A stretch of DNA of 56,441 nt from Deltaproteobacteria bacterium (GTDB lineage Bacteria > Desulfobacterota > Desulfobacteria > Desulfobacterales > Desulfobacteraceae), in NCBI GenBank assembly GCA_013151635.1, contig JAADHV010000065.1, positions 1 to 56,441 of the forward strand, read 5' to 3'. A program made the translations under genes and the position numbers. Shown here in pieces: positions 8,539-34,692 of the stretch (within the stretch, counting starts at the first letter, position 1; the number at the start of each line of letters is the position of its first letter). A model generated the notes under the pieces. The model saw nothing but the letters and a program-made list of their open reading frames with translations. It was not told the DNA's origin and did no database searches.

Positions 8539-8563
8539 TTCTTCTGCAACGAAAAATCAATAA

Positions 8564-9980: not shown

Positions 9981-10042
9981 GATAAACACAGGCTGGTTTT
10001 ATAAATTCATTGCATATTTAAATAGCCGGGACTTTAAAACTA

Positions 10043-10071
10043 TTGATTTATACGTGTAAAATATCTATAGA
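10043..10071 (+). promoter_or_regulatory. Candidate promoter of the HDOD-kinase operon
   Basis: TTGATT (10043-10048), 17-base spacer, TATAGA (10066-10071), in the AT-rich gap ahead of the HDOD kinase. It is a moderate match to sigma-70. Confidence 0.35.
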
Positions 10072-10124
10072 AACTAATAGAGCTTTTGTATTAGAAGGAG
10101 TTTAATTTTTTTAACCGGTTATTA

Positions 10125-12263: not shown

Positions 12264-12303
12264 GGATAAAGGCTTGAGGCCATTGCAATATCGAAGAATA
12301 ATA

Positions 12304-13251
12304 ATGCCTGAAATGGCAGGACCGTTAAAAACCGGCGAACTGCTTGTAAAAGAGGGGTTAATACGTCTTGATGATATTGATATGGCCCTTTCGATCCAGG
12401 AAAAGAAGCAGGATTCATTGACCCTTGGAAAGAAACGTTTTTTAGGAATGATTTTATGTGACCTGAACCTGGTCACACCGGTGGATAATTTTTATGTTCT
12501 TAATAAATATAATAAATTTACATCCATTCAATCTGTACTGGTGTCAAAAAATATAATTTCAAAGCAAGTTTTATTAAAAACGGAAAACGGATCGCATGAG
12601 CAGAATATTCCATTCATAAGCTTTCTTCTTAAAAAAAAGCTGATCTCTACTGTAAAAATGCAAGAATTATTGTTTGAGCTTTTCCATATCCCGTTTAGAT
12701 CAATAAGTGATTTTATCTTTAATAAAAAGGACAAAAAAGAACTCAGTCTGGTTCTGGATAAACAAAAGGCCCTTAAAAACGGGATTATACCGATGGTTTT
12801 AAAGGACAATACAATATTGTTCGGTATTACTGACCCTGAAAACATATTGTTCATACGAAATTTGAATGATCAATTTCCCCAATACCGGTTCAAGGTCTTG
12901 TTCATTCCTTTTTCCGGGTTTTCATGGTTTTATAAAATAATATATGACAAAACCGGGCAGGAAGTAAGCCCGGACAAAGGAGCATTAGATATTGCAAAGC
13001 TTTTAAGTTTTAAAACAATTATCCAAGATCCTGAACAGCAAAATGAATCCATAAAAACATTGTATGAAAGATATGAATTACTCAGGGAGTCAGCCGGGAA
13101 GCCAAGGCGTGATAACATGCAGAATGAATTTAAGGAATTTATTTTGCAAACCCATAAAAGAATCACACAAGAGTATAAAAGCAGGTGCATTGAGTTTTTT
13201 TTGAAAAAGGAAAATCAGGATATCAAAATTGTGGCGTTTCCAAAAAGGTAA
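12304..13251 (+). CDS. Stand-alone MshEN/GspE N-terminal-domain protein
   Basis: About 315 residues from the ATG at 12304, chosen because the sequence recognisable as family starts just after it (KTGELLVKEGLIRLDDIDMALSIQEKK). A second copy-like region around residue 100 (ISFLLKKKLISTVKMQELLFELFHIPFRSI) and IPMVLKDNTILFGITDPEN near 160 complete the T2SSE_N/MshEN pattern. These domains precede the ATPase in type II secretion and pilus motors, and some bind c-di-GMP. Here the ATPase is missing and the C-terminus is charged and coiled. It lies between a histidine kinase and a MinD-like ATPase. A c-di-GMP-responsive adaptor is an inference only. Confidence 0.65.
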   Translation: MPEMAGPLKTGELLVKEGLIRLDDIDMALSIQEKKQDSLTLGKKRFLGMILCDLNLVTPVDNFYVLNKYNKFTSIQSVLVSKNIISKQVLLKTENGSHEQNIPFISFLLKKKLISTVKMQELLFELFHIPFRSISDFIFNKKDKKELSLVLDKQKALKNGIIPMVLKDNTILFGITDPENILFIRNLNDQFPQYRFKVLFIPFSGFSWFYKIIYDKTGQEVSPDKGALDIAKLLSFKTIIQDPEQQNESIKTLYERYELLRESAGKPRRDNMQNEFKEFILQTHKRITQEYKSRCIEFFLKKENQDIKIVAFPKR

Positions 13252-13261
13252 GTGAACCATT

Positions 13262-14308
13262 ATGGCAAGAATCATTACAATTACCAGTGGAAAAGGCGGG
13301 GTAGGGAAAACAGGTATAAGCCTTAACCTGTCTTTGTCTCTGGCATCAGAAGGATACAAAGTCTGCCTGTTTGATGCAGACCTTGGCCTTGCCAATGTGA
13401 ATATTCTAACCGGCATATATCCCAAAAAGGATCTTGAATCCGTGATATCGGGACAATTTGGTTTAAATGAAATCATCATAAAAGACTTTCAGGGCATTGA
13501 TATAATTCCGGGAAGCTCAGGGGTGGAAAAAATCGCAGACCTGACCCGGACTCAGACTGGAACTCTCATCAGCGCTTTTCTAGATATTAAAGACTATGAT
13601 TATTTTATTTTTGACACATCAGCCGGTATCTCATCCCAGGTTCTTTCCTTTTGCATGGCATCCCATGAAATCATCCTTGTGGCCACCTGCGAGCCAACAT
13701 CCTTAACCGATGCATATTCAATGCTCAAAGTATTGTCAAAGTATCAATATAAGAACCCTGTCAAAGTCGTGATCAACCAGGTCAAGCAAGGCAAGGCCGC
13801 CCAAAAGGCCTATGCAAAGTTGAAAGATACTGTGAAAAGATTTCTTTGTATCAATGTGGAACCTCTGGGAATTGTTGCATGGGATAAGAATGTCAGGGCC
13901 GCAGTTATTTCCCAGACACCTTTTTTCATGCTTTTCCCTGATACAATTGCATCAAAGTGTATCAAAGCCATTACCCAAAAATTAATAAACAGGGCTGACA
14001 GCACCGGGGATATGCCCTTAGAGATTTTCTGGGACAAGTGCCTGTCTTTTTTTGAGAAACATTATAAAATAAAAAAAGACCCGGTTCTTCAAAAAGCGCC
14101 TTTAAAAGAAAAAGACCCGGATACTTTGAAAGCACTTTCCAATATTGAATCCAAACTTTCTATGTTGATAAAAGAAGTGGGTGCCATTAAACAATTTATT
14201 GAAATCCATGAATTTGCTGCAAAGAAGAGCCGCAATAAAAAAAATCAGGCACCCGGGCCCAAAGAAATTGCCCTTGATTTTGAATCCTGGCTTAAAAAAG
14301 GATATTGA
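13262..14308 (+). CDS. FlhG/MinD-like ParA-family ATPase
   Basis: 348 residues. The deviant Walker A GKGGVGKTGISLNLS (about 10-24), Walker A' LFDADLGLANVNILTG and Walker B-like DYFIFDTSAGISSQVLSF are typical of FlhG/MinD. The C-terminal ~80 residues are an extra charged, helical tail ending EIALDFESWLKKGY. It forms an operon with the HDOD kinase and MshEN protein (10-base gap). No flagellar gene is nearby, so a positioning role for a pilus, secretion or chemosensory complex is possible but not shown. No canonical MinD membrane-targeting helix was recognised. Confidence 0.87.
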   Translation: MARIITITSGKGGVGKTGISLNLSLSLASEGYKVCLFDADLGLANVNILTGIYPKKDLESVISGQFGLNEIIIKDFQGIDIIPGSSGVEKIADLTRTQTGTLISAFLDIKDYDYFIFDTSAGISSQVLSFCMASHEIILVATCEPTSLTDAYSMLKVLSKYQYKNPVKVVINQVKQGKAAQKAYAKLKDTVKRFLCINVEPLGIVAWDKNVRAAVISQTPFFMLFPDTIASKCIKAITQKLINRADSTGDMPLEIFWDKCLSFFEKHYKIKKDPVLQKAPLKEKDPDTLKALSNIESKLSMLIKEVGAIKQFIEIHEFAAKKSRNKKNQAPGPKEIALDFESWLKKGY

Positions 14309-14318
14309 TGTTTAAAAA

Positions 14319-14361
14319 AAAAGAATCAAATCTTATGCAGATGGATTTGATTCCTTTTTTT
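14319..14361. terminator. Terminator between convergent genes
   Basis: GAATCAAATC (14323-14332) pairs with GATTTGATTC (14344-14353) across an 11-base loop, followed by C and a T run on the plus strand and preceded by an A run that would serve the minus strand. It lies between the converging MinD-like gene and the duplicated-domain gene, so it may act in both directions. Confidence 0.85.
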
Positions 14362-14388
14362 ACAGTATTGGTTCAAATTTATACTGGC

Positions 14389-14925
14389 TTAATTTGAACC
14401 CGTGATATTTTTGTCCACAACCATACCGTCTTTGATTAGAAAATAAGTATAACCTATTTCCGGATCTTTTGGGCCGAAAGTCAGCTTTTTAATGCCGTTG
14501 TCATAGTCATGGTTGCTGACAGGGTTTCCCCATCTGGCTTTCAACTCGTCAACAGTCAAGGGGTTTGCATTATAGTAATCAGCCATGAGTCCTCTGGGTT
14601 CCGGGTTGTTTTTTATTCCGGAAGCTTTTTTTGAGCCTGTATCATCCGTGGTTCCCCTGTCAATTACCCGGCCGTTCCGGGTTAGAAAATAAGTATAACC
14701 TATTTCCGGATCTTTTGGGCCGAAAATCATTTTTTCAGCGCCATCGTCCATTTTAATAACATTGACAGGTTCTCCATAGGATGCCTTTAACTGGTCTGCC
14801 GTCATGGGGTTGGTTTTGTAATATGAGGCAAGCCAGCCGGCATTTGCCTGTCCAGGGATACTAATTGCCATTGAAAAACAGAAAACGGCGATCATTAAAC
14901 TTGTTTTTACCATATTTTTTTTCAT
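14389..14925 (-). CDS. Secreted duplicated-domain protein under a sigma-54 promoter
   Basis: 178 residues. A signal peptide (MKKNMVKTSLMIAVFCFSMAISIPGQANA) precedes two copies of a ~65-residue unit: YYKTNPMTADQLKASYGEP...IFGPKDPEIGYTYFL and YYNANPLTVDELKARWGNP...TFGPKDPEIGYTYFL. The unit has a helix then beta strands, loosely like BamE/SmpA folds, but the family is not identified. 44 nucleotides are identical between repeats (14436-14479 and 14682-14725), pointing to recent duplication or conversion. AAGGA precedes the ATG. Transcription probably depends on sigma-54 and the divergent activator. Presumably periplasmic or surface-exposed. Confidence 0.8.
   Translation of the reverse strand: MKKNMVKTSLMIAVFCFSMAISIPGQANAGWLASYYKTNPMTADQLKASYGEPVNVIKMDDGAEKMIFGPKDPEIGYTYFLTRNGRVIDRGTTDDTGSKKASGIKNNPEPRGLMADYYNANPLTVDELKARWGNPVSNHDYDNGIKKLTFGPKDPEIGYTYFLIKDGMVVDKNITGSN
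14436..14725. repeat. 44-bp exact direct repeat inside a coding sequence
   Basis: Positions 14436-14479 and 14682-14725 are identical over 44 bases and encode the same FGPKDPEIGYTYFL segment in the two domains of the secreted protein. Identity includes third codon positions while flanking domain sequence has diverged. Confidence 0.9.
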
Positions 14926-14986
14926 TTTGTTTCATCCTTAGTTTATAAAATATTATAAGTTATGTGTTTACCTGGAAAAGAACAAA

Positions 14987-15002
14987 TGCAATGCTTGTGC
15001 CA
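14987..15002 (-). promoter_or_regulatory. Sigma-54 promoter (-24/-12)
   Basis: On the minus strand TGGCAC-N5-TTGCA matches the sigma-54 consensus with the obligatory 10 bases between GG and GC. It is about 62 bases ahead of the duplicated-domain gene and divergent from a sigma-54 activator gene. Confidence 0.8.
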
Positions 15003-15084
15003 TAGGATAATATAGAAGAAAAATATAATTATTCCAGCATATTGCATGCAAGAGGTTAAAAATTGTCCAAGCGACATTCTTTTC

Positions 15085-22316: not shown

Positions 22317-23099
22317 ATTAAAAAAAAGTTAAATATAAAGGATCAATTATTTTTTGTTGTACTGACGGGTATAATATTGTTCTCAAAGCCTTCCAGCTAC
22401 GCCGGCCCAAAGGTTTTGCCGTTTTCCTTTGGAGAAAAAATCCGCTATTCTGTCAGATGGGAAATGATCCGGGCCGGAAAAGCATCGTTCAAGGTTCTTC
22501 CTTTTACAATGGCCAATGGAGAGAAAGCATATCATTTTATACTTGATGTAAGATCAAACAGATATATTGATATGCTTTTCAAAATCAGGGACCGGCTGGA
22601 AGGCTTTACAGATATTAAGTTTACAAAATCTTTTTTATACAGGAAGACACAATCCGGCAGGGAAAAAAAGCAGGTGGAGGTTCAATTTGACTGGGAAGCA
22701 AACACAGCCACCTATTCAAACTTTGGCGGGAAAAGAGATCCTGTCAGGATTCCTTTAAATGCTTTTGATCCGCTTTCAGCTTTTTATAAAATGCGGACCC
22801 TGGATCTTGAATCCAATCAAGACCTGTCCTTTCCTGTGACGGATGGGAAAAAATATTTCATGCAGAAAGGCAAGGTGATTGGTAAAGAAAAAATAACCTT
22901 GCCGTCAGGCAGCTTTGATACATATGTGCTGGCCCCGCAGGTAAATCATTTTTCAGGTGTGTTTAAAAAGAGTGAAAATCCAAGCGTAAAAGTATGGGTT
23001 ACGGCAGATGATCGGAAAATTCCCGTAAGAATAAAAGTAAGGGTATTTATAGGCAGCGTCATCTTTGACCTTGTTTCTGTGAGATACGGTGGGCCCTGA
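22317..23099 (+). CDS. DUF3108 family exported protein with a non-AUG start
   Basis: The recognisable domain (FSFGEKIRYSVRWEMIRAGKASF...YHFILDVRSNRYIDMLFKIRDRLEGFTD) is DUF3108, a beta-rich envelope protein. In frame upstream of 22377 the sequence reads KKKLNIKDQLFFVVLTGIILFSKPSSYA, a textbook signal peptide, so translation starts earlier than the TTG at 22377. No ATG/GTG/TTG exists in frame between the preceding stop (22305) and this peptide; ATT 22317 or ATA 22308 are the only plausible initiators. The start given is therefore provisional. It follows the GAPDH gene by about 10 bases. Likely periplasmic. Confidence 0.7.
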   Translation: MKKKLNIKDQLFFVVLTGIILFSKPSSYAGPKVLPFSFGEKIRYSVRWEMIRAGKASFKVLPFTMANGEKAYHFILDVRSNRYIDMLFKIRDRLEGFTDIKFTKSFLYRKTQSGREKKQVEVQFDWEANTATYSNFGGKRDPVRIPLNAFDPLSAFYKMRTLDLESNQDLSFPVTDGKKYFMQKGKVIGKEKITLPSGSFDTYVLAPQVNHFSGVFKKSENPSVKVWVTADDRKIPVRIKVRVFIGSVIFDLVSVRYGGP

Positions 23100-23177
23100 A
23101 ATGCGAACCTTGGGTAGCCTGCCTGGGGGACACGCAATCATTGACTAAAAAAAATATAGAAAATCAAAAAAAAACTA

Positions 23178-23206
23178 TTGACAAATAGAATTCAAGTTAA
23201 TATATA
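23178..23206 (+). promoter_or_regulatory. Promoter of the TetR/TRAP catabolic operon
   Basis: TTGACA (23178-23183), 17-base spacer, TATATA (23201-23206): a near-consensus sigma-70 promoter. The first palindromic operator begins 9 bases after the -10 box, over the expected start of transcription. Confidence 0.75.
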
Positions 23207-23214
23207 CAAAAAAT

Positions 23215-23324
23215 CTACCGTACGGTAGGTAGGCATTTTAAAGAATATTAACAATTTGAATTGCTATATATCAATAAATCTAAATTGTTATATAGGTAAT
23301 ATCTACCGTGCGTACGGTAGATAT
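23215..23324. promoter_or_regulatory. Two TetR-type operators (CTACCGT/ACGGTAG)
   Basis: Site 1: the 14-base perfect palindrome CTACCGTACGGTAG at 23215-23228. Site 2: ATATCTACCGT (23299-23309) and ACGGTAGATAT (23314-23324) with a 4-base spacer GCGT. Both share the same half-site. They lie between a strong promoter and the TetR gene at 23422, so autoregulation and control of the downstream catabolic genes are likely. Confidence 0.8.
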
Positions 23325-23421
23325 TATTTAAAATAATACCTTTTGCGATGACGGATCTGAGTACAACCAAGGCTGAATTGAAATCGATATCACGAAAAAC
23401 AAAACAGGAGGATTTTCATCT

Positions 23422-24036
23422 GTGAATTCCACAAAAGAGACCATTAAAAAGGCAGCCATCAATTTGTTTTATAAAAAAAGCTATTTTGCCACGGCCATGA
23501 GCAATATCGCCCTTGACAGCAGTATACGCAAAGCCAGCATCTATCATCACTACGCAAGCAAGGAAGATATACTTTATGATATCCTCATGACAACCATGAA
23601 AGAATTAACCATCTATATAGAAACCTGTCTTGAAGGGGTTGAAAATATTGAAAACAGGATGCGGGCCGCAGTAAGGGCCCACGTCAAATTTCATTGTGAC
23701 CGCCAGAAAGAGGTGTTGATCTCTGACAGTGAACTCAGGGGGCTTACCGCAAATAATTATAAAAGCTTTGTAGCCCAGCGGGATGCCTATGAAAAAATAT
23801 TCCAGGACATGATTATCCAGGGAATGGACCAGGGATATTTTGCAGCCGGGGATGCCAAGGTGATCTCCTATGCCATACTGACCATGTGTACGGCAGTAGC
23901 CCACTGGTTCAACCCCAAAGGACGTCTGTCCGGAAACCAGATTTCCAATATATATGAAGAACTTGTTGTAACACGATTGTTAAGAGAATCACTCCCGCTG
24001 CATTCTTTTGAAAATTCTGTTTTGGAAGAAGAGTAA
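23422..24036 (+). CDS. TetR/AcrR family transcriptional regulator of the catabolic operon
   Basis: 204 residues from a GTG with AGGAGG 10 bases upstream. The N-terminal HTH (AAINLFYKKSYFATAMSNIALDSSIRKASIYHHYASKEDIL) is typical TetR. The C-terminal part resembles the FadR/BenM-free TetR_C ligand domains that often bind acyl-CoA (MCTAVAHWFNPKGRLSGNQI). It heads the TRAP/CoA-ligase cluster and has two operators in its own upstream region. The effector may be the substrate's CoA thioester, by analogy with other catabolic TetR regulators. Confidence 0.9.
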   Translation: MNSTKETIKKAAINLFYKKSYFATAMSNIALDSSIRKASIYHHYASKEDILYDILMTTMKELTIYIETCLEGVENIENRMRAAVRAHVKFHCDRQKEVLISDSELRGLTANNYKSFVAQRDAYEKIFQDMIIQGMDQGYFAAGDAKVISYAILTMCTAVAHWFNPKGRLSGNQISNIYEELVVTRLLRESLPLHSFENSVLEEE

Positions 24037-24084
24037 AACGGGAAATTTAACTATAATGCACCAACCAGACAAAGGAGACGTACA

Positions 24085-25161
24085 ATGAAAAAAGAAAAAT
24101 ACACTGGAATACGGACACCCCGCCCCAGGACCGGGTCTGCTCCCAAAACTCTTTTCATTTTAATGGTATTGCTCATTGCACTGTTTATGATGGCATCTCC
24201 TGTTTTGGCCGGAAAGTCATACAATTGGAAAATCAGCCAGGGAATTGCCGAAGATCACCCAGCCGCGGCTCGCTGCAAACAGTTTGCCCGGATTGTAAAA
24301 GAAAAATCCAAGGGCCGGATGAAGCTTAATTATTTTCCGGCAGGCACCCTGGGTGACTGGTCAGAGCAGATTGAAGCCAACCGGATGGGAACCCTGGAAA
24401 TCGGACTCAATGCCGGCTCCACCTCCTATAACCCAAAGACCAATCTTATGTTCATGCCCTATCTTTTTTCTTCCTGGGATGAGGCACGGGCTGCCATCGG
24501 TTCAAAAGGATGGCTGACCCCCATATTCAATGATCTCTACTCAACCATCGGCCTCAAGGTGCTGGGCATTTATTTAAATGCCTGGGACGGCATGGCTTAT
24601 ACGAGCCGGGTAAAAAATTTAGTTAAAGTACCGGCTGATGCCAGGGGTAAGGGGATCAAGATGCGGGTTCCCCCCATCCGGATATTTGAAGTTTATATAC
24701 CTACCCTTGGTTTTATTTCCACACCAGTGGCCTATTCGGAAACATTTACCGCCCTGCAGACAGGGATAGTTGACGCCAGGTCTGCCTGTCCTGCGGTTGA
24801 AGCCTATGTCATGAGGGATGCCATAAATACCTATGTGGCCACAAGGGATGCTTTTGAATACTGGTTTCTGACCATGAATAAAAAACTATGGGACTCTCTT
24901 TCTCCGGCAGATCAGGCCATTCTTACCGCCAGTGCAGACAAGGTTATGGCAGACCAGGCTGTGGCAGCAGAACAGGATGAAAAGGATTTTATGAACAAAC
25001 TCACAAAAGCTGGAGTCAAGGTTTATGAAGTCAGTGACCAAGAGTGGAAACTATCAGCCAAAGCTGTCAGGGAAAAGGCATGGCCAATCATTGAAAAAGA
25101 ACTATTGGGAACTGAACTCATGAACAAAATCAAGCAGCATGCAACCCCTATTTCTCAATAG
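24085..25161 (+). CDS. dctP: TRAP transporter substrate-binding protein (DctP)
   Basis: 358 residues. A long N-region with a membrane-inserting signal peptide (about residues 20-43, ending VLAGK) then the DctP fold: NWKISQGIAEDHPAAARCKQF, FPAGTLGDWSEQIEANRMG, LNAGSTSYNP, and a conserved MRVPPIRIFEVYIPTLGFISTPVAYSE region including the Arg that grips the carboxylate. It is the first gene of dctPQM. The substrate is probably an organic acid that the downstream ligase then activates. AAAGGAG precedes the ATG. Confidence 0.93.
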   Translation: MKKEKYTGIRTPRPRTGSAPKTLFILMVLLIALFMMASPVLAGKSYNWKISQGIAEDHPAAARCKQFARIVKEKSKGRMKLNYFPAGTLGDWSEQIEANRMGTLEIGLNAGSTSYNPKTNLMFMPYLFSSWDEARAAIGSKGWLTPIFNDLYSTIGLKVLGIYLNAWDGMAYTSRVKNLVKVPADARGKGIKMRVPPIRIFEVYIPTLGFISTPVAYSETFTALQTGIVDARSACPAVEAYVMRDAINTYVATRDAFEYWFLTMNKKLWDSLSPADQAILTASADKVMADQAVAAEQDEKDFMNKLTKAGVKVYEVSDQEWKLSAKAVREKAWPIIEKELLGTELMNKIKQHATPISQ

Positions 25162-25217
25162 GAAAAATTTTGTCCGGAAAGGTCTTCCTTTCCGGATCCG
25201 GCCAAAGGGAGAAAAAA

Positions 25218-25739
25218 ATGTCCATGAGAACCGTTCAAAAAACAGCCCTTGCAATTGATCATGTGTTAACCAATTGCCTGACACTGCTCATCGTTCTGGG
25301 CGGCATTCTTATGACCCTGACGGTGGTGCTCCAGGTACTGCTGCGCTATGTGTTTAAACAACCCCTTTTCGGCCTTGAAGAGTTTTCACGCCTGGTGGCC
25401 ATATGGATTTATTTTCTGGGTGCTGTCTTCAGTACCAAAACTGACAATCATGTCCAGGGGGATGTGGCAAATAAATTTATAACAGGAGAACGGGCAAGGA
25501 TTATTCTGAGGACCATTGTCTGGGTACTCTGCCTTGTGACCTGTATCTTGTTTCTTTATCATTCCGGGACCTATTCCTGGTGGATCTATGGCACTGGGGA
25601 GCGGACTCCAGGCCTGTGGTGGCCCAGGATCATCAGCGTTGGCAGCATGTTTTTCGGCGCAGCCCTCATGACTCTCTACAGCCTGACTAATGTGATCAAA
25701 TATCTGACATGCGCCTTAAATTATACGGAAGACCCTTAA
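25218..25739 (+). CDS. dctQ: TRAP transporter small permease (DctQ)
   Basis: 173 residues from the ATG at 25218, which has AGGGAG 6 bases upstream; an earlier in-frame GTG-type opening is less likely. Four hydrophobic segments; the family motif RYVFKQPLFGLEEFSRLVAIWIYFLGA is clear. It is the small membrane subunit joining DctP to DctM. It ends 11 bases before dctM. Confidence 0.9.
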   Translation: MSMRTVQKTALAIDHVLTNCLTLLIVLGGILMTLTVVLQVLLRYVFKQPLFGLEEFSRLVAIWIYFLGAVFSTKTDNHVQGDVANKFITGERARIILRTIVWVLCLVTCILFLYHSGTYSWWIYGTGERTPGLWWPRIISVGSMFFGAALMTLYSLTNVIKYLTCALNYTEDP

Positions 25740-25750
25740 AGGAGCGCCCC

Positions 25751-27052
25751 ATGACAATTGTACTTTCTATATTAATGGTGGTTATATTGATGATGTTGAT
25801 AGGCGTACCCGTGGGTTTTGCATTTGGTCTCGGCGGGTTTGCCACCCTGTTTTTCACAGGGATTGATCCGAGATTTGCCATGCCCGCTGCCTTCAGGTCC
25901 ATCGAATCCTATACTCTCATGGCCCTGCCCCTGTTTATCCTTGCAGGAGGCTTGATCAGCGAATCCGGTATTTCCCAGCGACTCTTGAATTTTACCATGT
26001 CCATTGTGGGCAGAACAAAGGGGGGACTGGGTGTGGTCTGTGTGGTCACCTGCACTATTTTCGGTGCCATTTCAGGCAGTGCATCCGGAGCCATTGCCGC
26101 CATCGGGTCCATCATGATTCCGGAAATGACAAGGCAGGGATATCCCAGGGGGTATGCAACAGGGCTTGTGGCCACCTCCTCCATGCTGGCCCTGCTGATT
26201 CCCCCCAGTATCCCCATGATTGCATTTGCCATGACTGCACAGATTTCCATTTTGTCGGCTTTTTTAAGCACCTTGATTCCCGGGCTTTTAATGATGATAA
26301 GTTACAGCCTGGTCAATATTTTTTTGAGCCGCCGTATGGAAAATCTTACCATCGCGCCCAGGCAATCTTCAAAGGAAAAAGTCAAAGAAATCGGACGTAC
26401 CACCAAACAGGCCACCTTTGCCCTGTTAATGCCGGTCCTGGTCCTGGGAGGTATTTACGGGGGAGTTTTCACCCCCACGGAAGCGGCAGCCATCTCTGCC
26501 ATCTATGCCGTGCTGGTTGGGTTGGTCCTATACCGGGTCATGACTGTTAAAAAAATGTTTTCCACCATAAAGAGCGCCATGATCACATCCGGAGCCATTA
26601 TGATCCTGCTGTTTTTCATTTTAATGGTTTCCAGAATCATGGTAACCCTTCAAGTACCCCAGCACCTTACCCAGGCCATGTTCAGCATCACCACCAATAA
26701 ATGGGGGGTCCTTCTGATGCTTAATATTATTTTACTGGTTATGGGCATGCTGGTGGATGATGTGTCCGGCAACATTCTTTCAGCCGCTATCCTCCTGCCG
26801 GTTGCACAGTCCGTTGGCATAGACCCGGTTCACTTTGCGGCTATTTCTGTCACCAATCTTTCCCTGGGCAATGTCACACCCCCCTGCGCCCCCATGCTTT
26901 ACCTTGCCGGAATGATTGGAGGCAACGTGCCCCTGAACGAATATATAAAACCAGCCGGATATTTCATGATATTCGGTGCATTGCCCGTGATACTTATGGT
27001 AACCTATGTGCCTGAATTCGCACTTTTTTTAGTTGACATGTTTTTAAGATAA
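25751..27052 (+). CDS. dctM: TRAP transporter large permease (DctM)
   Basis: 433 residues from the ATG at 25751, with AAAGGAG just upstream. About 12 hydrophobic helices, with the DctM signatures MALPLFILAGGLI, GSASGAIAAIGSIMIPEM, VATSSMLALLIPPSIPMI and the C-terminal NVTPPCAPMLYLAG. It forms the sodium-coupled channel subunit at the inner membrane. It is followed by the enoyl-CoA hydratase after 21 bases. Confidence 0.94.
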   Translation: MTIVLSILMVVILMMLIGVPVGFAFGLGGFATLFFTGIDPRFAMPAAFRSIESYTLMALPLFILAGGLISESGISQRLLNFTMSIVGRTKGGLGVVCVVTCTIFGAISGSASGAIAAIGSIMIPEMTRQGYPRGYATGLVATSSMLALLIPPSIPMIAFAMTAQISILSAFLSTLIPGLLMMISYSLVNIFLSRRMENLTIAPRQSSKEKVKEIGRTTKQATFALLMPVLVLGGIYGGVFTPTEAAAISAIYAVLVGLVLYRVMTVKKMFSTIKSAMITSGAIMILLFFILMVSRIMVTLQVPQHLTQAMFSITTNKWGVLLMLNIILLVMGMLVDDVSGNILSAAILLPVAQSVGIDPVHFAAISVTNLSLGNVTPPCAPMLYLAGMIGGNVPLNEYIKPAGYFMIFGALPVILMVTYVPEFALFLVDMFLR

Positions 27053-27073
27053 TTTGAATTTTTGGAGATGAAC

Positions 27074-27838
27074 ATGGAAAATGAAACCGTATTGTACCAC
27101 CGCAGCAAGGACGTTGGAATTATTACCCTTAACCGCCCCCATCGCCTCAATGCCATTAACCTTGATCTGCTTAAAGGGTTTATGAAACAGCTTGACAGGG
27201 CAAAACAGGATACAGGTGCCAGGGTGATTATTCTGACAGGAGAGGGAAAATCCTTTTGCGCTGGCGAGGATCTAAAAGAGACCGCTTCCGGCAAAAGCCT
27301 GGAACAATGGATGGATGAAGCGGAAAGACTCCAGGAAATCCAGCGCATGACCATGAAGCTGGGTAAGCCCATTATTGCTGCGGTGCCCGGATATGCCCTG
27401 GGCGGGGGATGTGAATTCGCCATGGGATGTGACATCAGGATTGCCTCAGAAGCTGCTGTATTTGGATTTCCCGAAACCACAGTGGGCATGACCGTTACCA
27501 ATGCCGGCACAAAGATCCTGACTCATCTTGTGGGGCTGGGTAAGGCCAAGGAACTTGTATTGACCGGTGATTTCATTGATGCACCCCAAGCGTTAAAAAT
27601 CGGTCTTGCCAACAAGGTGGTGGCACCCGGAAATCTCATGGATGAATCAATGGCCATGGCTGGAAAAATTGCCAGCCGCTCCCCCCTTGCAGTCAGCCTG
27701 TCACGAACTGCCATTGACCATGGCATGGAGGCCAGCTTTGACCAGATCATGGAGCTTGAAAAAAGCCATTTGCTTATCTGCGCCCAAAGCGGAACAAAAT
27801 TTGTGGAAAAGCGGCTCAGGGAAATGAACAAAAAATAA
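27074..27838 (+). CDS. Enoyl-CoA hydratase/isomerase family protein
   Basis: 254 residues. The oxyanion-hole blocks FCAGEDLKE and IAAVPGYALGGGCEFAMGCDIRIA, the first catalytic Glu in CEFAMGCD and the second region FGFPETTVGM are intact. GGAG six bases before the ATG at 27074 selects this start. It would hydrate a 2-enoyl-CoA or perform a related crotonase reaction in the same pathway as the ligase downstream. The exact substrate is unknown. Confidence 0.9.
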   Translation: MENETVLYHRSKDVGIITLNRPHRLNAINLDLLKGFMKQLDRAKQDTGARVIILTGEGKSFCAGEDLKETASGKSLEQWMDEAERLQEIQRMTMKLGKPIIAAVPGYALGGGCEFAMGCDIRIASEAAVFGFPETTVGMTVTNAGTKILTHLVGLGKAKELVLTGDFIDAPQALKIGLANKVVAPGNLMDESMAMAGKIASRSPLAVSLSRTAIDHGMEASFDQIMELEKSHLLICAQSGTKFVEKRLREMNKK

Positions 27839-27880
27839 CCGGACGATTTTAAAAATTTATATGCATCACAGGAGAAGGAA

Positions 27881-29212
27881 ATGGATCAGACAATGTTTAA
27901 TCCGGATATGGAATCCATATCTGGAACAGACCAGGAAAAAATGGAGAAAGCCCTTCTCCTTGACCAGATTGAGTATGTATACGGGTACAGCAAAATGTAC
28001 CAGGACAAATTTACAAAGGCCGGCATTAAAAAAGATAAAATAAAGGATGTAAAGGACCTTGCGCTTCTTCCATTTACCACCAAACAGGAGCTGCGGGATT
28101 CCCAGAAAAGACTGGCCCCGTTTGGCGATTTTCTGGCCGCCCCTGCTGAAAAAGTCAACCGGGTTCACCGGACATCCGGCACCACGGGCAGCTTTGTATA
28201 TACAGCCTTGACAAAAAACGACCTGGACCTGACCCACAATTGCGGGGCCAGGGCATTCTGGGCAGGAGGGCTGCGCCCCCATCACCGTGTTGTCCACTGC
28301 CTGAATTACTGCATGTGGATGGGCGGATATACGGATCATGCCAACCTGGAGGCAACCGGGGCCACTGTCATTCCCTTTGGGGTGGGCAATGCCAGGCAAC
28401 TGATCCAGGTCATCAAAGACGCCGGAATAAATGCCATTTCATCCACACCTTCCTACCCCAGACACCTGGAAAAAGTGGTTAAAACAGAATTCAACATGGA
28501 CCCGGCGGAACTCGGACTTAAACTGGGATTGTTTGGCGGCGAACCTGGCCTTGAAAATCCCGTATTCAGGCAGCGGATTGAAAACACCTGGGGAATGAAG
28601 GCCCAGAATGCCAACTATGGGGTTTCAGATGTATTGTGTAATTTTGCTTCCGTGTGCCAGGATAATTACAAGCTCCATTTCCTGGGGCAGGGCGCATTGC
28701 TTATCCAGCTGATTGATCCTGAGACACTGGAAAATATTCCGGTTACGGAAGGGGCAGTAGGTGAAATGGTTCTGACCCATCTGAAAAAAGAAGCTCAGCC
28801 CCTGATCAGGTACCGGACATCTGATCTCATGGAAATCCTCGAAACAGGTCCGTGTGAGTGCGGCAGAACAGGATTCCGGTTCCGGATTGTTGGAAGAGCC
28901 GATGATATGCTCCATGTAAAAGGCATCAATGTATTTCCCAACGGCATTGCCATGGTCCTGGAAGATATGGTTCCCAATGTCACAGGTGAATTCCAGATCA
29001 TTCTGAATCATCGGTCACCGTATACCAGCCTTGATATAAAAGTAGAGCATGGCACACAGATCACACCTGACAGGATGCCGGGTCTGAAATTAAAAATTGA
29101 GAAAAAGATCAAAGAAACTTTGAACTTTAAAGGGATTGTTGATCTCGTGAAACCCGATTCAATTAAACGGACCAAAATGGGAAAAGCAAGAAGGGTTATC
29201 CGGAATTATTGA
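27881..29212 (+). CDS. PaaK-like phenylacetate/aryl-CoA ligase
   Basis: 443 residues, normal for the PaaK group. Motifs: HRTSGTTGSFVYTAL (P-loop, about residue 98), NANYGVSDVL (Y-G-x-S/T motif), RYRTSDL, CECGRTGFRFRIVGRADDMLHVKGINVFP and C-terminal Lys in KRTKMGKARRV. It makes an acyl-CoA with ATP and coenzyme A (AMP and pyrophosphate released). Aromatic or hydroxy acids are usual substrates. The TRAP transporter upstream probably delivers the acid. AGGAGAAGG gives a strong ribosome-binding site. Confidence 0.92.
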   Translation: MDQTMFNPDMESISGTDQEKMEKALLLDQIEYVYGYSKMYQDKFTKAGIKKDKIKDVKDLALLPFTTKQELRDSQKRLAPFGDFLAAPAEKVNRVHRTSGTTGSFVYTALTKNDLDLTHNCGARAFWAGGLRPHHRVVHCLNYCMWMGGYTDHANLEATGATVIPFGVGNARQLIQVIKDAGINAISSTPSYPRHLEKVVKTEFNMDPAELGLKLGLFGGEPGLENPVFRQRIENTWGMKAQNANYGVSDVLCNFASVCQDNYKLHFLGQGALLIQLIDPETLENIPVTEGAVGEMVLTHLKKEAQPLIRYRTSDLMEILETGPCECGRTGFRFRIVGRADDMLHVKGINVFPNGIAMVLEDMVPNVTGEFQIILNHRSPYTSLDIKVEHGTQITPDRMPGLKLKIEKKIKETLNFKGIVDLVKPDSIKRTKMGKARRVIRNY

Positions 29213-29342
29213 TAATATTGGCATAGAACTTTTCTATATGAAAGTGTTTTTTTACTGGTATTAACAATTTGATAAATTGTCAGGTTCAGTCTAAGTCATC
29301 CTTATGAATAACCTTGATATTATTGGGAAAGGAAATTTTCAA
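29213..29342 (+). other. Gap between ligase and reductase genes with a short palindrome
   Basis: A 130-base AT-rich gap containing ACAATTT (29264-29270) and AAATTGT (29274-29280), an exact 7-bp inverted repeat with a 3-base spacer. It could be an operator or a weak processing hairpin. No clear promoter is seen. Confidence 0.3.
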
Positions 29343-30623
29343 ATGAGTGATGACAATACAAGCATGTGGAAAAATTTAGGATTGGACCTTAAAGCCCATG
29401 ATGTCCTGCTCGGTGTCCTCGGGCAGGCATATCAGGACATTTACCTGTCACAGGAGAACCGTCCCCGGGGAATGGAGTATTTTGATTTTGTTATGAGTGA
29501 GATACACGGTCTCAGGATAAAAGAACTGCTGGATGAGAAAGAAAAAAAACGTAAAATTATCGGCAGTTATTGCGTATTTGTCCCTGAGGAAATTGCTCTG
29601 GCAGCTAATGCAACCCTGGTCGGTTTATGTTCGGGCGCGGATTTTGCTGTTGAGCAGGTGGAAAAATACCTGCCGAGAAATACATGTTCCCTTATCAAGT
29701 CCTCTTTCGGGTTCAAGCTTGCCAAGGTCTGCCCCTATCTTGAATGTGCAGACATGATAGTGGGGGAAAATACCTGTGACGGCAAGAAAAAAGCCTATGA
29801 AACCATGGGCACCCTGGTTGACAATCTTTATGTCATGGATTTGCCCCAGATGAAATCAGATAATGGACGAAAACTCCTCCGGTCTGAATATGACCGGTTT
29901 AAATCAGCTGTGGAAGAACTGACAGGGGTTGAGATAAGCGTTGACTCATTAAAGGAGGCCATCAGGACTGTAAATGAAAAAAGGGCGGCAATCCACAGGT
30001 TATCACAGCTGAGGATTGCTGATCCGGTACCGATTTCAGGTTTGGATGCACTTTTAGCAAACCAGGTCTTCTTTTATGACAATCCTGCCCGGTTTACACA
30101 ATCTGTAAACAAGATTTGCGATGAACTGGAAGAACGCATCAGCAAAAAAAAAGGAGTGTTTCCTGAAAAAACACCCAGGATTTTATTTTCCGGTTGTCCC
30201 ATGGCTGTTCCCAACTGGAAGCTGCCGTGGATTGTGGAAACATCCGGTGCCGTTATTGTGGGTGAAGAATCCTGCGTGGGAGAACGGGGAACAAGGAACC
30301 TTACGGATGATTCAGGGAAAACTGTGGATGCACTCATGGATGCGGTTGCCGACCGGTATTTCAAGATTGACTGTGCAATTTTTACCCCGAACCAGGACAG
30401 GCGTGACCATATTTTGGAAATGACCAGAGCCTATAAGGCCGACGGGGTTATTCACTATGGCCTCCAGTTCTGTCAGCCCTATAACATGGAATCCATTCCG
30501 GTTGAAAAATTACTGGAAGAAGAGGGCATCCCCTGCCTGCGGATTGAAACTGATTATGGAATGGAGGATGTGGGCCAGATCAAGACAAGGGTGGAAGCCT
30601 TTATTGAACAGATCCAGGATTAA
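29343..30623 (+). CDS. Double-cubane-cluster anaerobic reductase (2-hydroxyacyl-CoA dehydratase family)
   Basis: 426 residues from ATG 29343 (AAAGGA 9 bases upstream; ATG 29304 has no ribosome-binding site). The N-terminus MWKNLGLDLKAHDVLL, RPRGMEYFDFVMSEIHGLRIKEL and cysteine motifs LCSGADF, NTCDGKKK, FSGCPMAVPN and EESCVGERG match the single-subunit double-cubane proteins, relatives of benzoyl-CoA reductase and 2-hydroxyacyl-CoA dehydratase. Such proteins carry a [Fe8S9]-type cluster and perform ATP-driven low-potential reductions when charged by an activase. The activase gene follows directly. The substrate is unknown; an acyl-CoA of the same pathway is likely. Confidence 0.87.
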   Translation: MSDDNTSMWKNLGLDLKAHDVLLGVLGQAYQDIYLSQENRPRGMEYFDFVMSEIHGLRIKELLDEKEKKRKIIGSYCVFVPEEIALAANATLVGLCSGADFAVEQVEKYLPRNTCSLIKSSFGFKLAKVCPYLECADMIVGENTCDGKKKAYETMGTLVDNLYVMDLPQMKSDNGRKLLRSEYDRFKSAVEELTGVEISVDSLKEAIRTVNEKRAAIHRLSQLRIADPVPISGLDALLANQVFFYDNPARFTQSVNKICDELEERISKKKGVFPEKTPRILFSGCPMAVPNWKLPWIVETSGAVIVGEESCVGERGTRNLTDDSGKTVDALMDAVADRYFKIDCAIFTPNQDRRDHILEMTRAYKADGVIHYGLQFCQPYNMESIPVEKLLEEEGIPCLRIETDYGMEDVGQIKTRVEAFIEQIQD

Positions 30624-30648
30624 ATAATTAAAATTTTATGGATGGGCA

Positions 30649-31407
30649 ATGATATTCGCAGGCATTGATATTGGCTCCAGGACAGTGGAACTTGTACTGG
30701 TTGAAGGCGGCAGGGTCATTGAAAGCCGCCAGTCCGAGACAGGGTTTGATCCGGTTTTTGAAGCCAAAAAGCTTCTTGAGGGGCTTGAATTTGATGGTAT
30801 TATGGCCACAGGTTATGGTCGAAATCTTTTTGAAAATGCATTTGAAAATGCAGGTACAGTGACGGAAATAAAGGCCCATGCAACAGGTGCCAGGGCGGAA
30901 TTTTGTGATGCCGGGACCGTTCTTGATATTGGCGGGCAGGACAGCAAGGCTATCCGCCTTGATAACAGCGGGCGTATAAAAAAATTTGAGATGAATGACC
31001 GCTGTGCTGCGGGTACAGGAAAATTTTTAGAAATCATGGCTGAAAATCTCGGGTTCAGCCTTGACAATTTCGGGCCTGCAGCTCTTACTGCTAAAAAAGA
31101 TCTGGTCATCAACAGCATGTGTACTGTGTTTGCCGAATCCGAGGTCACGTCATTGATCGCCAGGGGAGCCGACAGAAGTGAAATCGCACGCGCCCTGCAT
31201 AGAAGTGTGGTCAGGCGGGCCGCTGGCATGCTGGGCCGGGTATCATCATCCGGCCCGATTGTTTTTTCAGGAGGTGTTGCAAAAAATGCATGCATCCGGG
31301 AACTGCTTTCAGACACGCTTGAAAGGGAAGTTATGGTTCCCCGATATCCCCAGATGGTTGGTGCTTTGGGCGCGGCTTTGATTCTGGAAAGCCGCGCTTT
31401 TAAATGA
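30649..31407 (+). CDS. ASKHA-family acyl-CoA dehydratase/reductase activase
   Basis: 252 residues. IDIGSRTVELVLVEGG, LDIGGQDSKAIRL, NDRCAAGTGKFLEIMA, NSMCTVFAESEVTSLI and FSGGVAKNACI are the HgdC/BcrD-type motifs; the two Cys (in NDRC and NSMC) bridge a [4Fe-4S] cluster at the dimer interface. It hydrolyses ATP to push an electron into the partner double-cubane protein encoded 25 bases upstream. A terminator stem forms within its last codons. Confidence 0.93.
   Translation: MIFAGIDIGSRTVELVLVEGGRVIESRQSETGFDPVFEAKKLLEGLEFDGIMATGYGRNLFENAFENAGTVTEIKAHATGARAEFCDAGTVLDIGGQDSKAIRLDNSGRIKKFEMNDRCAAGTGKFLEIMAENLGFSLDNFGPAALTAKKDLVINSMCTVFAESEVTSLIARGADRSEIARALHRSVVRRAAGMLGRVSSSGPIVFSGGVAKNACIRELLSDTLEREVMVPRYPQMVGALGAALILESRAFK
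31370..31401 (+). terminator. Rho-independent terminator inside the activase 3' coding end
   Basis: GCGCGGCTTT (31370-31379) pairs perfectly with AAAGCCGCGC (31388-31397) around an 8-base loop, followed by TTTT. It encodes the last residues of the activase (GAALILESRAFK), so the terminator is coding. Confidence 0.85.
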
Positions 31408-31419
31408 GGTCATGAAAAA

Positions 31420-34400
31420 TCAGCTTAAATCGGCCTGGCCCGGTCCAAGGAAAAACTTCCTTGTTTTGCCATAGCCGGTTTTAAGTTTAAGCTTGCTGTT
31501 TTCAATCAAAGCATAGAGTGTCGGGACAACAACAAGGGTCAGAACCGTTGCGATCATAAGTCCAAAAATAACGACAATTGCCATGGATCTCCACCACTGG
31601 CTGGATTCACTTGCCATTGAAACTGCCATGACATGGAAATCATAACTGATACCTGTGACCATGGGCAAAAGCCCGAGGATAGTTGTAATGGCCGTCAACA
31701 TAACAGGCCTTAACCTGGTGGCCCCGGCAGCAACGACAGAGTCCCTTATACTCATGCCGCTATCTCTGAGCTTATTGGTGTAATCAATAAGAACAATAGC
31801 ATTGTTTACAACCACCCCGGCAAGGGAGATGATGCCCACCCCTGTCATGATTATTCCAAATGGCGAGTTAATAACGGCAAGGCCCCAGAAGGCACCGCCT
31901 AGTGACAGGATTACGGATGTAAGGATGATGACGGGCTGGATTACGGAGTTAAACAAGGTCACAAGGATCAGGAAGATTAAAAAAAGTGCAATTATAAATG
32001 CTTTTAACAAGAATGCCTGGGATTCTTTCTGGCTTTCATCCTCTCCTGTGAATTTATATTTATACCCGGCAGGCAGCTTAATCTTTTTAAGCATCTTTAA
32101 GGCCTGCATCCTCACAAGAGTTCCAGTGGTCTTTAATTCATCAATATTCGCCTTGACCGTGACAACACGTTGATGGTTTTTTCTTATAATATCCCCCATA
32201 GTTCCCTTATATTCAATGCTTGCAAGGGTGGTTAAAGGGACAATTTCTCCTGTGGCCGTGGAGATCATGAGCTTATGGAGGACGTCTGCCACTTTTCTTG
32301 AGGGTTCGGAAAGCCTGACCACAATGTCATAATCATCATCCCCTTCATAAAAGGTTGAGACGTTAAGGCCGTTATAGGCTGTTTTCAATGCGCTGCCAAT
32401 GGAACTTGTGGTAAGGCCGAAAAGGGCTGCTTTCTGGCGGTCAATCCTGACCTGGACACTTGGCAGGCTGCCCTGGTAATCATCCCGGATGTCTTTGACG
32501 TGGGGAATTTTTTCAATAACTTTTTTTATATTCTCAGCTATTTTGCTTAAAATACTAAAATTATTCCCTGAAATTTCAATATTGACTGGAGGCCCTGTGG
32601 GAGGGCCTTCCTGCTGCTGATCAACAGTGATCCTCACACCTGCAATGTTTTTGACCCTTTTTCTCAGCTCTTCAAGGTCGTCTTCGGTTGGAGATTTTCT
32701 GTCTGCAAAATCAATAAACTGGATGCCTATGTGGTTGGGAAGGTTGGAGTCAAAAACAGATCCGCCTGAATTTTGAACAACCTTGGTAAAGATATGTTCG
32801 ATATTATTGATATTGCTGGGAGCCATAAACTTTGTGCCGTCTGCATTTTCATGTTCCTGAAGTCTCATGGCATCCTTGTAGTCCATGGTCTTGTTCCCGG
32901 TAATGGCTATTTCTACTTTTTTTATGGTCCTGTCAATGAAATCAAGGTCTGCCCCTGCCGGAGGATCAATATTTATATATACTGATCCGGGATCAATGGG
33001 GGGAAAAAATTCTATGGGTTTTTCAACACCGATTTTTAAAAACCATATCTGGACAAAAATGATCAGCACAGCAAAAGACCCGATCAACACCGTGATTTTA
33101 TAATCAAGTGCTTTGTTTAAAATTTTTGAATAAAGTTTTAACCACAATCCCTTGATTTCAATTGGCTTTTCTCCCTGGGCCTCTATTTCTTTTGCAGTGA
33201 GTATTTTTCCATCGCTGTTTGTTTTTCCCTTCATAAAAAAAGCGCACATGGCAGGGTTGATCACAAGAGCGACAAAAAGAGACGAAGATAATGTCACAAT
33301 CAGGGTAATAGGAAGGTATTTCATGAACTCACCCATGATGCCCGGCCAGAAAATCATCGGGAAAAAAGCGGCAATAGTCGTCAGGGTAGAGCCTATCACA
33401 GGCCAGGCCACCTCTCCTGTTGCCTTCATGGCAGCGTCCACTTTTGGAACGCCCTGCTGCATATAACGGTAAATATTTTCAATAATTACGATTGCATTAT
33501 CCACCAGCATTCCCAGGGCAAGGGTCAAAGAAAAAAGCACAACCATGTTAAGCGTATATCCCATGGCCTGGAGGACCGCAAAAGATAAAAACATTGAAAA
33601 AGGTATGGCGATTCCTACTAATAAGGCATTTCTAAGTCCAAGCGCAACAAATAAAATTGCAACAACAAGAAGGAGGCCTGAAATAATATTATTCTCAAGG
33701 TCAGCCACCATATGCCGGATATCTTTTGATTTATTCATAAGCTTGGTAATGGTGGTGTTTTTCGGGAATGTTTTTTTTGCCTCTTTTATAATAGTGTCAA
33801 TTTTGTCGGAAATAAAAATAATATTTTCCCCGACCCTTTTTTTAACGGATATATTGACCGAATTCACGCCATTCAAGCGTGACCGTGAGGTTTCTTCCTT
33901 GATGCCGTCAACAACGGTTGCAACATCCTTTAAATAAATGGGCTTGCCGTTGTGGGTTGCAACAACAAGGGAAAGGATTTCCTCGGGTGTTTTAAATTCT
34001 CCCGGAACCTTAAGCTGGTACCTGCCGTCCCCAAGGGTGATGGCGCCACCGGACGTGTTCTGGTTCTCACTTACAACCGCTCTTTGCAATGATGTAATGG
34101 GAATCCTGTAATATGCAAGTTTATCAGGATCAACTTCTATCCTGATTTCCCTGTCCTGACCACCGGTCACTTCAACTTCAAGGACTCCTGGCACGGCTTC
34201 AATGTCATCTTTTAAATCATCTGCGATTTTCTTTAACACTCTCGGACCGCTTGTCCCTGCCAGGGAATAAATAACTATGGGCATTTCCGAGAAATTAACC
34301 TCAAACACGGAAGGGTCATTTTCAAGGTCGGACGGAAGATCATTTTTTGCTTCATCCACTTTGTCCTTGACCTTTGTTAATACCTCATCAATATCAGTAC

Positions 34401-34692
34401 CTGGTAAAAATTCAATATTGATCCGGGACAGGCCCTGGGAACTTACGGAACTGATATTTTTTACCTTGTCCAGTCCTTTGAGTTTTTTTTCAATCTTTAT
34501 GGTGATGCTGGTTTCAATATCAGATGCAGAGACCCCGCGGTAGTCGGTCTGTACAAATACATAAGGAATGGTAATATCCGGGTCACTCTCCCTTGGCAGG
34601 GCTTTATAGGAATAAATACCAATGCCCATAATTATAAGGGCCAAAACCAGGACGCTGGTTCTGTTTTTTATGGCAGTATCAGAGATAATCAT
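31420..34692 (-). CDS. RND efflux transporter, HAE1/AcrB-type inner-membrane pump
   Basis: 1090 residues with the two-half RND organisation: N-terminal TM (VLVLALIIMGIGIYSYKALPRESDPDI), periplasmic PN/PC, a TM block at about 350-560 with LALGMLVDNAIVIIENIYRYMQ, and a repeat in the second half (ISLAGVVVNNAIVLIDYTNKL). The Asp in GMLVDNAIV is the proton-relay residue of the family. Its ATG overlaps the adaptor stop by 4 bases. No outer-membrane TolC gene is present here. The substrate (drug, solvent or lipid) is unknown. Confidence 0.93.
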   Translation of the reverse strand: MIISDTAIKNRTSVLVLALIIMGIGIYSYKALPRESDPDITIPYVFVQTDYRGVSASDIETSITIKIEKKLKGLDKVKNISSVSSQGLSRINIEFLPGTDIDEVLTKVKDKVDEAKNDLPSDLENDPSVFEVNFSEMPIVIYSLAGTSGPRVLKKIADDLKDDIEAVPGVLEVEVTGGQDREIRIEVDPDKLAYYRIPITSLQRAVVSENQNTSGGAITLGDGRYQLKVPGEFKTPEEILSLVVATHNGKPIYLKDVATVVDGIKEETSRSRLNGVNSVNISVKKRVGENIIFISDKIDTIIKEAKKTFPKNTTITKLMNKSKDIRHMVADLENNIISGLLLVVAILFVALGLRNALLVGIAIPFSMFLSFAVLQAMGYTLNMVVLFSLTLALGMLVDNAIVIIENIYRYMQQGVPKVDAAMKATGEVAWPVIGSTLTTIAAFFPMIFWPGIMGEFMKYLPITLIVTLSSSLFVALVINPAMCAFFMKGKTNSDGKILTAKEIEAQGEKPIEIKGLWLKLYSKILNKALDYKITVLIGSFAVLIIFVQIWFLKIGVEKPIEFFPPIDPGSVYINIDPPAGADLDFIDRTIKKVEIAITGNKTMDYKDAMRLQEHENADGTKFMAPSNINNIEHIFTKVVQNSGGSVFDSNLPNHIGIQFIDFADRKSPTEDDLEELRKRVKNIAGVRITVDQQQEGPPTGPPVNIEISGNNFSILSKIAENIKKVIEKIPHVKDIRDDYQGSLPSVQVRIDRQKAALFGLTTSSIGSALKTAYNGLNVSTFYEGDDDYDIVVRLSEPSRKVADVLHKLMISTATGEIVPLTTLASIEYKGTMGDIIRKNHQRVVTVKANIDELKTTGTLVRMQALKMLKKIKLPAGYKYKFTGEDESQKESQAFLLKAFIIALFLIFLILVTLFNSVIQPVIILTSVILSLGGAFWGLAVINSPFGIIMTGVGIISLAGVVVNNAIVLIDYTNKLRDSGMSIRDSVVAAGATRLRPVMLTAITTILGLLPMVTGISYDFHVMAVSMASESSQWWRSMAIVVIFGLMIATVLTLVVVPTLYALIENSKLKLKTGYGKTRKFFLGPGQADLS

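Follow-up and report, generated by a model that had tools for sequence, protein, structure and literature searches.

Double-cubane cluster proteins (DCCPs) hold an octanuclear iron-sulfur cluster and are driven by ATP, and the available part of PMC11971306 calls their physiological role unclear. The protein of the structures 6eno and 7yyl is the DCCP of Carboxydothermus hydrogenoformans (PMC7306483, excerpt), and a link of DCCP to selenium has already been named, as provisional, in an extract of the preprint PMC10418091. A different type of system has been described in Desulfococcus multivorans, which, according to the accessible passages of PMC5109826, forms a ligase, a hydratase, methylcrotonyl-CoA carboxylase (MCC) and 3-hydroxy-3-methylglutaryl-CoA (HMG-CoA) lyase on isovalerate; on phenylacetate it forms a TRAP system together with a CoA ligase and a hydratase. 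Here we describe an 8.3-kb stretch in which a DCCP gene and its activase gene follow a TetR-TRAP-hydratase-ligase operon. A DUF3108 gene and an RND gene flank it, in a window of 56,441 nt, the window being the whole stretch of DNA analysed.

The preliminary description of this DNA had listed a TetR regulator, a TRAP transporter, a hydratase, a PaaK-like ligase, a double-cubane protein and an activase, and all of them are present as open frames on the + strand between 23422 and 31407. Most probably, these genes represent two independent, adjacent modules in a variable site flanked by DUF3108 and RND. One would be a regulated operon for a carboxylate, the other a DCCP/activase pair that has been relocated. 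The region is a carboxylate operon of known type next to a known reductase pair, with the following features.

22377..23099, + strand: DUF3108 gene (PF11306), left flank of the insertion site
23215..23228, no strand: TetR operator-like palindrome 1, CTACCGTACGGTAG, at a conserved position upstream of TetR
23303..23320, no strand: TetR operator-like palindrome 2, CTACCGTGCGTACGGTAG, same motif in relatives
23422..24036, + strand: TetR-family regulator (PF00440 TetR_N, PF17932 TetR_C_24)
24085..25161, + strand: DctP, TRAP solute-binding protein (PF03480)
25170..25739, + strand: DctQ, TRAP small permease (PF04290)
25709..27052, + strand: DctM, TRAP large permease (PF06808; TIGR00786 over cut-off)
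27062..27838, + strand: enoyl-CoA hydratase/isomerase family protein (ECH; PF00378, crotonase-type matches)
27881..29212, + strand: PaaK-like acyl/aryl-CoA ligase (PF14535; TSGTTG motif present)
29213..29342, no strand: intermodule gap of 130 bp, 27% GC (guanine plus cytosine), no clear promoter or terminator
29343..30623, + strand: DCCP (open frame from 29304; NF040772; 6eno/7yyl; six ligand cysteines)
30649..31407, + strand: ATP-dependent activase, the DCCP reductase (TIGR00241 over cut-off; PDB 4eht, 7yyl_E)
31420..34692, - strand: RND efflux-type gene, right flank, named by eye (similar gene in L216, L217, L219, L220 and L221)

From the TetR gene to the ligase gene the intergenic gaps are 48, 8, -31, 9 and 42 bp. 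DCCP (with its start at 29343) follows after 130 bp, and 25 bp separate it from the activase. The convergent RND gene, which lies 12 bases past the end of the stretch, and both palindromes had been absent from the preliminary description.

Linkage of the double-cubane pair to the carboxylate operon

Loci were compared from both sides. The DCCP side comprised the best 80 of 308 loci found (70-81% identical; all 80 from named genomes), with a threshold of 60 bits for neighbours. Room upstream exceeded 2 kb in 69 of them and 5 kb in 54. On the ligase side, 389 genomes of the class were searched and orthologs (67-89%) were found in 12 besides the window's genome, the next matches lying at 40% or below. 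The relatives in these samples are not independent, the loci vary in length, and many of the genomes are draft assemblies.

None of the 80 DCCP loci held DctP, DctQ or the PaaK ligase at 60 bits or more. DctM gave two remote matches only (27 and 29% identity, 8.5-9.1 kb off), ECH was matched in four loci (30-53%) and TetR in one (L086). The activase lay within 2.5 kb downstream of DCCP in 57 of the 71 loci with room for it, and anywhere in the locus in 64/80. From the ligase side, DCCP and activase were found in none of the 12 other ortholog loci and in none of eight further loci around weaker ligase homologs. ECH was kept in 11 of these 12 loci, nine times directly upstream of the ligase and twice about 5.5 kb downstream of it; no ECH is visible in the twelfth, L169, a contig of 4.8 kb on which the ligase is truncated. 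TRAP genes adjoined the ligase in five of the 12, and TetR was present in five. At the level of whole genomes, DCCP exceeded its cut-off in 4/10 family genomes with a ligase ortholog vs 48/76 without (n=86; Fisher p 0.18, the trend being negative), and the other three genomes with both genes carry them on different contigs. Ligase and DCCP adjoin in the window's genome alone among those examined, and no conserved linkage of DCCP with ligase or TRAP genes was found on either side.

The preliminary description had seen the double-cubane pair as linked to a dedicated uptake and activation system and had suggested, on that basis, a specific carboxylate as DCCP substrate. The counts do not support membership of the pair in the operon (DCCP homologs with DctP, DctQ or ligase, 0/80; ligase loci with DCCP, 0/12), and the linkage behind the suggested substrate is not conserved in the relatives examined. 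Ligase, hydratase, DCCP and activase do not keep together in the related genomes examined, and within these loci homologous double-cubane/activase pairs never occurred with the TRAP/ligase set. Its TetR-switched acyl-CoA pathway survives in part, as a TetR/TRAP/ECH/PaaK operon with conserved operator-like palindromes, whereas DCCP and activase are not supported as its members. The adjacency is uninformative on the DCCP substrate, since in relatives the pair was not found with the acid-uptake operon and was often found with selenium genes.

In three same-genus genomes (L219, L220 and L221) the site is empty and DUF3108 adjoins RND, with stop-to-stop distances of 55 and 11 bases in L219 and L220 and overlapping stops, with none between, in L221. 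Different genes fill the site in L216 (3.2 kb, 7752-10985) and L217 (6.5 kb, 8051-14584), and in the window the cargo between the two flanking genes spans 23100-31419. DUF3108 is present in L214, L215 and L218 with no RND within about 8 kb beyond it, and L213 ends too early for the site to be judged. Because the site is empty or differently filled in same-genus genomes, the stretch was either inserted here, as variable cargo, or lost from other genomes. No direct repeats of at least 9 bases were found between 23080-23300 and 31350-31550.

Several observations weigh against the independence of the two modules. Both are richer in GC than their flanks (43-50% in the genes of the stretch vs 40-45% in the nine neighbours computed) and may therefore have arrived together. 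In L086, a TetR (47%) and an ECH (53%) lie 9-10 kb from DCCP on the opposite strand, a pair that is accompanied there by a BrnQ-type transporter and a CoA-transferase, and 26 of the DCCP loci have less than 5 kb upstream. Moreover, the eight genes are collinear. No terminator was found in the gap before DCCP (29213-29342), and the best sigma-70 consensus in this gap matched 8/12 positions, a score reached by 89% of shuffles, although a gap of 27% GC may hold a promoter that such a consensus misses. In the relatives, a consensus promoter upstream of DCCP was obtained at p<=0.05 in 3/80. A TTGATT-17-TATA-like spacing, noticed by eye upstream of DCCP in several relatives, was dropped after the scan gave no confirmation. 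With no terminator and no promoter found in the gap, one transcript is possible, and read-through from the carboxylate operon into DCCP in the window's genome is a possibility that would not be evidence of a shared pathway.

These features bear on two other explanations. A single pathway under TetR control, with DCCP and activase reducing or dehydrating the acyl-CoA that comes from ligase and hydratase and with a DCCP substrate derived from the carboxylate, would agree with the common strand, the gap free of a terminator, the insertion site common to both modules and the homology of DCCP to subunits of benzoyl-CoA reductase and hydroxyacyl-CoA dehydratase. However, we consider it very improbable in view of the reciprocal absence of DctP, DctQ and PaaK from the 80 DCCP loci and of DCCP from the 12 other PaaK loci, the lack of a positive genome-level co-occurrence of ligase and DCCP, and the carboxylase set that occupies the place after PaaK in five relatives, in one of them as a remnant. 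A recent one-off recruitment deserves more credit, although it too is less probable than independence: the pair would have landed behind the operon, be read through from the TetR promoter and be expressed together with acid catabolism, either with no chemical involvement or in a new accessory role. An adjacency found only in this genome, the sharing of one insertion site and the 130-bp gap with no terminator or clear promoter would all fit such an event; on the other side, the low-GC gap may hold a promoter of a kind that a sigma-70 consensus misses. We favour two independent modules over both alternatives.

The double-cubane pair and its frequent selenium neighbourhood in relatives

For DCCP, the start at 29343 is favoured over that at 29304 by homology and by a Shine-Dalgarno-like AAAGGAAA. 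The protein scored 480 bits against NF040772 (cut-off 350), which places it in the DCCP family, and its top PDB matches were 7yyl (458 bits) and 6eno (457 bits), with residues 17-437 of 439 aligned. The [8Fe-9S] cluster of BzdN is bound by Cys36/73/100/263/293/327 (PMC11971306, available part), and Cys77/115/145/311/344/377 of the window's DCCP, counted from the start at 29343, align with these six within a single subunit. Each of the six is invariant in 80/80 relatives, as are four more cysteines (96, 130, 259 and 285). With the C. hydrogenoformans DCCP and DCCP reductase (6eno, 7yyl) the pair shares homology, the six ligand cysteines and the adjoining activase; it differs in Cys285, present in the window and in all 80 relatives, which is Thr in the 6eno/7yyl protein. 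The gene at 30649-31407 provides DCCP with a dedicated ATP-dependent activase, and carries Cys119 and Cys158 at what are presumably the positions expected for ligands of the bridging [4Fe-4S] cluster.

On the other hand, DCCP remained far below the models for benzoyl-CoA reductase and 2-hydroxyacyl-CoA dehydratase subunits, with 89, 64 and 121 bits vs cut-offs of 454, 421 and 700 for TIGR03190, TIGR02263 and NF052456. The class I benzoyl-CoA reductase BzdNO (8s02) and 2-hydroxyisocaproyl-CoA dehydratase (3o3m) share with it the HGD-D family and activase-driven electron transfer, but they are two-subunit acyl-CoA enzymes, whereas the window's protein is one subunit: no second HGD-D subunit stands beside DCCP, the window's contig giving one HGD-D match, and the genome's other four matches form two pairs, on contigs C4 and C18. 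In a wider search of the class, DCCP exceeded its cut-off in 114/241 genomes. By analogy with C. hydrogenoformans, DCCP and activase would form a complete ATP-driven low-potential reductase, with the activase driving electrons into the [8Fe-9S] cluster.

Examination of the surroundings of DCCP in relatives revealed at least one of SelB, SelD, YedE, YedF and a selenium LysR regulator in 31 of the 80 loci (12, 10, 14, 13 and 5 loci, respectively), or in 29 without two weak cases (YedF at 38% in L043 and SelB at 33% in L080). The Se/S-carrier protein DUF3343 was found in 14/80. As controls, 20 ligase-side loci (279 kb) and 10 flank or carboxylase loci (132 kb) held none of the selenium genes. The 54 matches observed compare with about 1.4 expected by chance, a figure that takes the loci as independent, with five genes in each genome of 4.5 Mb, and that does not give a true probability, because the loci are related. 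The order in L092 is SelB, DCCP, activase, YedF, YedE, Se/S carrier, a carbohydrate-kinase-like gene and SelD, and L068, L078 and L112 are similar. In the tree, selenium-linked loci are spread over many clades, but only 2 of the 14 relatives that share the smallest starred set with the window's copy are among them. Among 18 further DCCP-family loci of same-family genomes, some being paralogs at 34-40% and some perhaps overlapping the 80, three hold a selenium gene. Presence or absence of selenium genes was also tried and was discarded as a test: YedF exceeds its cut-off in 68/86 and SelD in 74/86 family genomes, too common to inform, which is why physical linkage was used. A side observation concerns SelD: most of its matches over cut-off among those listed contain one in-frame TGA (for example C2:34729-35658, and many family genomes), as expected if SelD is itself a selenoprotein.

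Since the same pair often stands inside selenium gene clusters in other sulfate reducers, DCCP more probably carries out a selenium-linked reduction than acts on a carboxyl-CoA substrate. More specifically, and only tentatively, the sulfate-reducer pair might be an ATP-driven [8Fe-9S] reductase of selenium metabolism that supplies SelD by reducing or liberating a selenium compound, for example by reductive deselenation (compare the related thiouridine desulfidases, which remove sulfur), its window copy having moved behind the carboxylate operon; we would not be surprised to see this proposal fail. Two facts weigh against a selenium role here: the window's DCCP has no selenium genes nearby, eight queries giving no match in the 56-kb window, and all five genes are absent from 49/80 DCCP loci. 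In the window's own genome, YedF lies over cut-off on C63 and SelD on C2, C32 and C119. As for published work, Table 1 of Lin et al. 2015 (PMC5322559) has an activase and subunits of 2-hydroxyglutaryl-CoA dehydratase among the STRING partners of selenium genes, and in the available portion of that text the words activase and dehydratase occur nowhere else. The orthologous pair in relatives is placed similarly to the DCCP/DCCP reductase selenium clusters in the accessible parts of PMC10418091 and PMC5322559, whereas the window's copy is not. In the literature searched, PMC10418091 was the one work naming the link, and no count of DCCP-selenium linkage for sulfate reducers was found. The analysis removes a tempting clue to the role of DCCP, the neighbouring carboxylate operon, and strengthens the selenium clue: in sulfate reducers the orthologous pair occurs in selenium clusters much more often than the control loci do, which opens the way to a direct test.

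Regulation and substrate of the carboxylate operon

A further outcome of the analysis is a conserved TetR-TRAP-ECH-PaaK operon under operator control, which has a carboxylase partner in relatives. This gene order is kept in L159, L165 and L166 and partly elsewhere; the uptake genes of L167 are a Liv-type ABC transporter, and L168 contains members of the same families. The best NCBIfam match of TetR was the FadR model, at 49.5 bits vs a cut-off of 200. ECH had no NCBIfam model over cut-off among the matches listed, and holds Glu118 and Glu138, which we take to be the positions of the two catalytic glutamates expected of hydratases. The nearest named family of the ligase is that of the PaaK models, all below cut-off. 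With 250 bits vs the 646.3 of the PaaK equivalog TIGR02155, the protein is PaaK-like only, and its PDB matches were PaaK (2y27) and 2-hydroxyisobutyryl-CoA synthetase (6hdw).

Palindromes of the type CTACCG-n-CGGTAG, with two mismatches at most, were found within 300 bp upstream of TetR twice in the window and in all five relatives with this TetR (L159, L161, L162, L165 and L166). The relaxed pattern (up to two mismatches, spacer 2-6) occurred in the 300 bp upstream of TetR in 6/6 loci, the window included; the remainder of these 14 loci would predict 0.02, and the pattern arose in 1-15 of 1000 shuffles. Palindrome 1 is the sole perfect match in the 4.2-Mb genome, with one more place at one mismatch. 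Genome-wide frequency was rejected as evidence: the 14-base pattern with up to one mismatch occurred in two places vs nine for the reversed control, and for this reason the operator evidence rests on position. The conserved sites support an autoregulated control of the operon, in which TetR would bind the two palindromes upstream of its own gene, with repression and a ligand as presumed parts, and the operon would be induced by its substrate. The TRAP system would then import the acid, the PaaK-like ligase convert it to a CoA thioester and the hydratase act on the thioester, and the acyl-CoA would be taken over by enzymes from outside the operon, for which the methylcrotonyl-CoA-carboxylase-like set on contig C70 is the most likely candidate.

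Such a set stands in five relatives where the window has DCCP and activase. Downstream of the ligase, L159, L160, L165 and L166 carry a TIGR03084 protein, biotin carboxylase, biotin carboxyl carrier protein and carboxyltransferase; the set of L160 is interrupted by the contig end, and L164 holds a remnant only. In the window's genome the set lies on C70, with a carboxyltransferase at 86% identity, beside an acyl-CoA dehydrogenase whose top PDB matches are isovaleryl-CoA dehydrogenases. PDB matches of the carboxyltransferase included MCC beta chains (mitochondrial 559 and bacterial 552 bits), AccD1 (538) and geranyl-CoA carboxylase (GCC; 450), and we read it, from these similarities, as probably of the MCC/GCC type. 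The isovalerate cluster of D. multivorans (CoA ligase, enoyl-CoA hydratase, MCC and regulator) and the relatives of the operon hold the same kinds of enzymes; in the passage of PMC5109826 its ligase is named acyl-CoA synthase AcsA6 and no TRAP system is named, and the window's genome has its carboxylase on a separate contig. The likeness is one of enzyme kinds.

The operon's substrate would best be explained as a short branched or unsaturated acid. This assignment meets difficulties of its own: the top PDB match of the carboxyltransferase was a chain named propionyl-CoA carboxylase (9tps, 577 bits; other chains named propionyl-CoA carboxylase beta gave at most 270), the top NCBIfam model of the C70 dehydrogenase was acryloyl-CoA reductase, below cut-off, and the best HMG-CoA lyase for a leucine-type route in the window's genome reached 124 bits vs a cut-off of 246. 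For these three reasons we do not regard a branched-acid route as proven. An aromatic acid such as phenylacetate, an alternative that touches the substrate alone, would accord with PaaK as the nearest named family of the ligase and with the TRAP system, CoA ligase and hydratase of phenylacetate-grown D. multivorans (PMC5109826, same passages); the score far below the PaaK equivalog cut-off, the MCC-type carboxylase after the operon in relatives and the ligase, hydratase, MCC and HMG-CoA lyase formed on isovalerate by the same organism make it rather unlikely, and the short branched or unsaturated acid is preferred.

Some ligase orthologs have other neighbours. A proline-racemase-family gene is near the ligase in L163, and flavin adenine dinucleotide-dependent DAO-family oxidases are near it in L163 and L167 by Pfam and in L169 by clustering with them (L163:7552-8553 and 1719-2891, L167:1899-3110 and 13807-15063, L169:3635-4756), which hints at another substrate class, for example hydroxyproline-derived acids. 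The TIGR03084 product, a DinB/MDMPI-like metal-binding protein, lies between the ligase and carboxylase genes (L159:11376-12182; homologs in L160, L164, L165 and L166), and a homolog is also found beside the carboxylase genes on C70 (L212). Upstream of that carboxylase-like set in the window's genome, L212:15357-16520 encodes a 387-aa protein with two TetR_N stretches.

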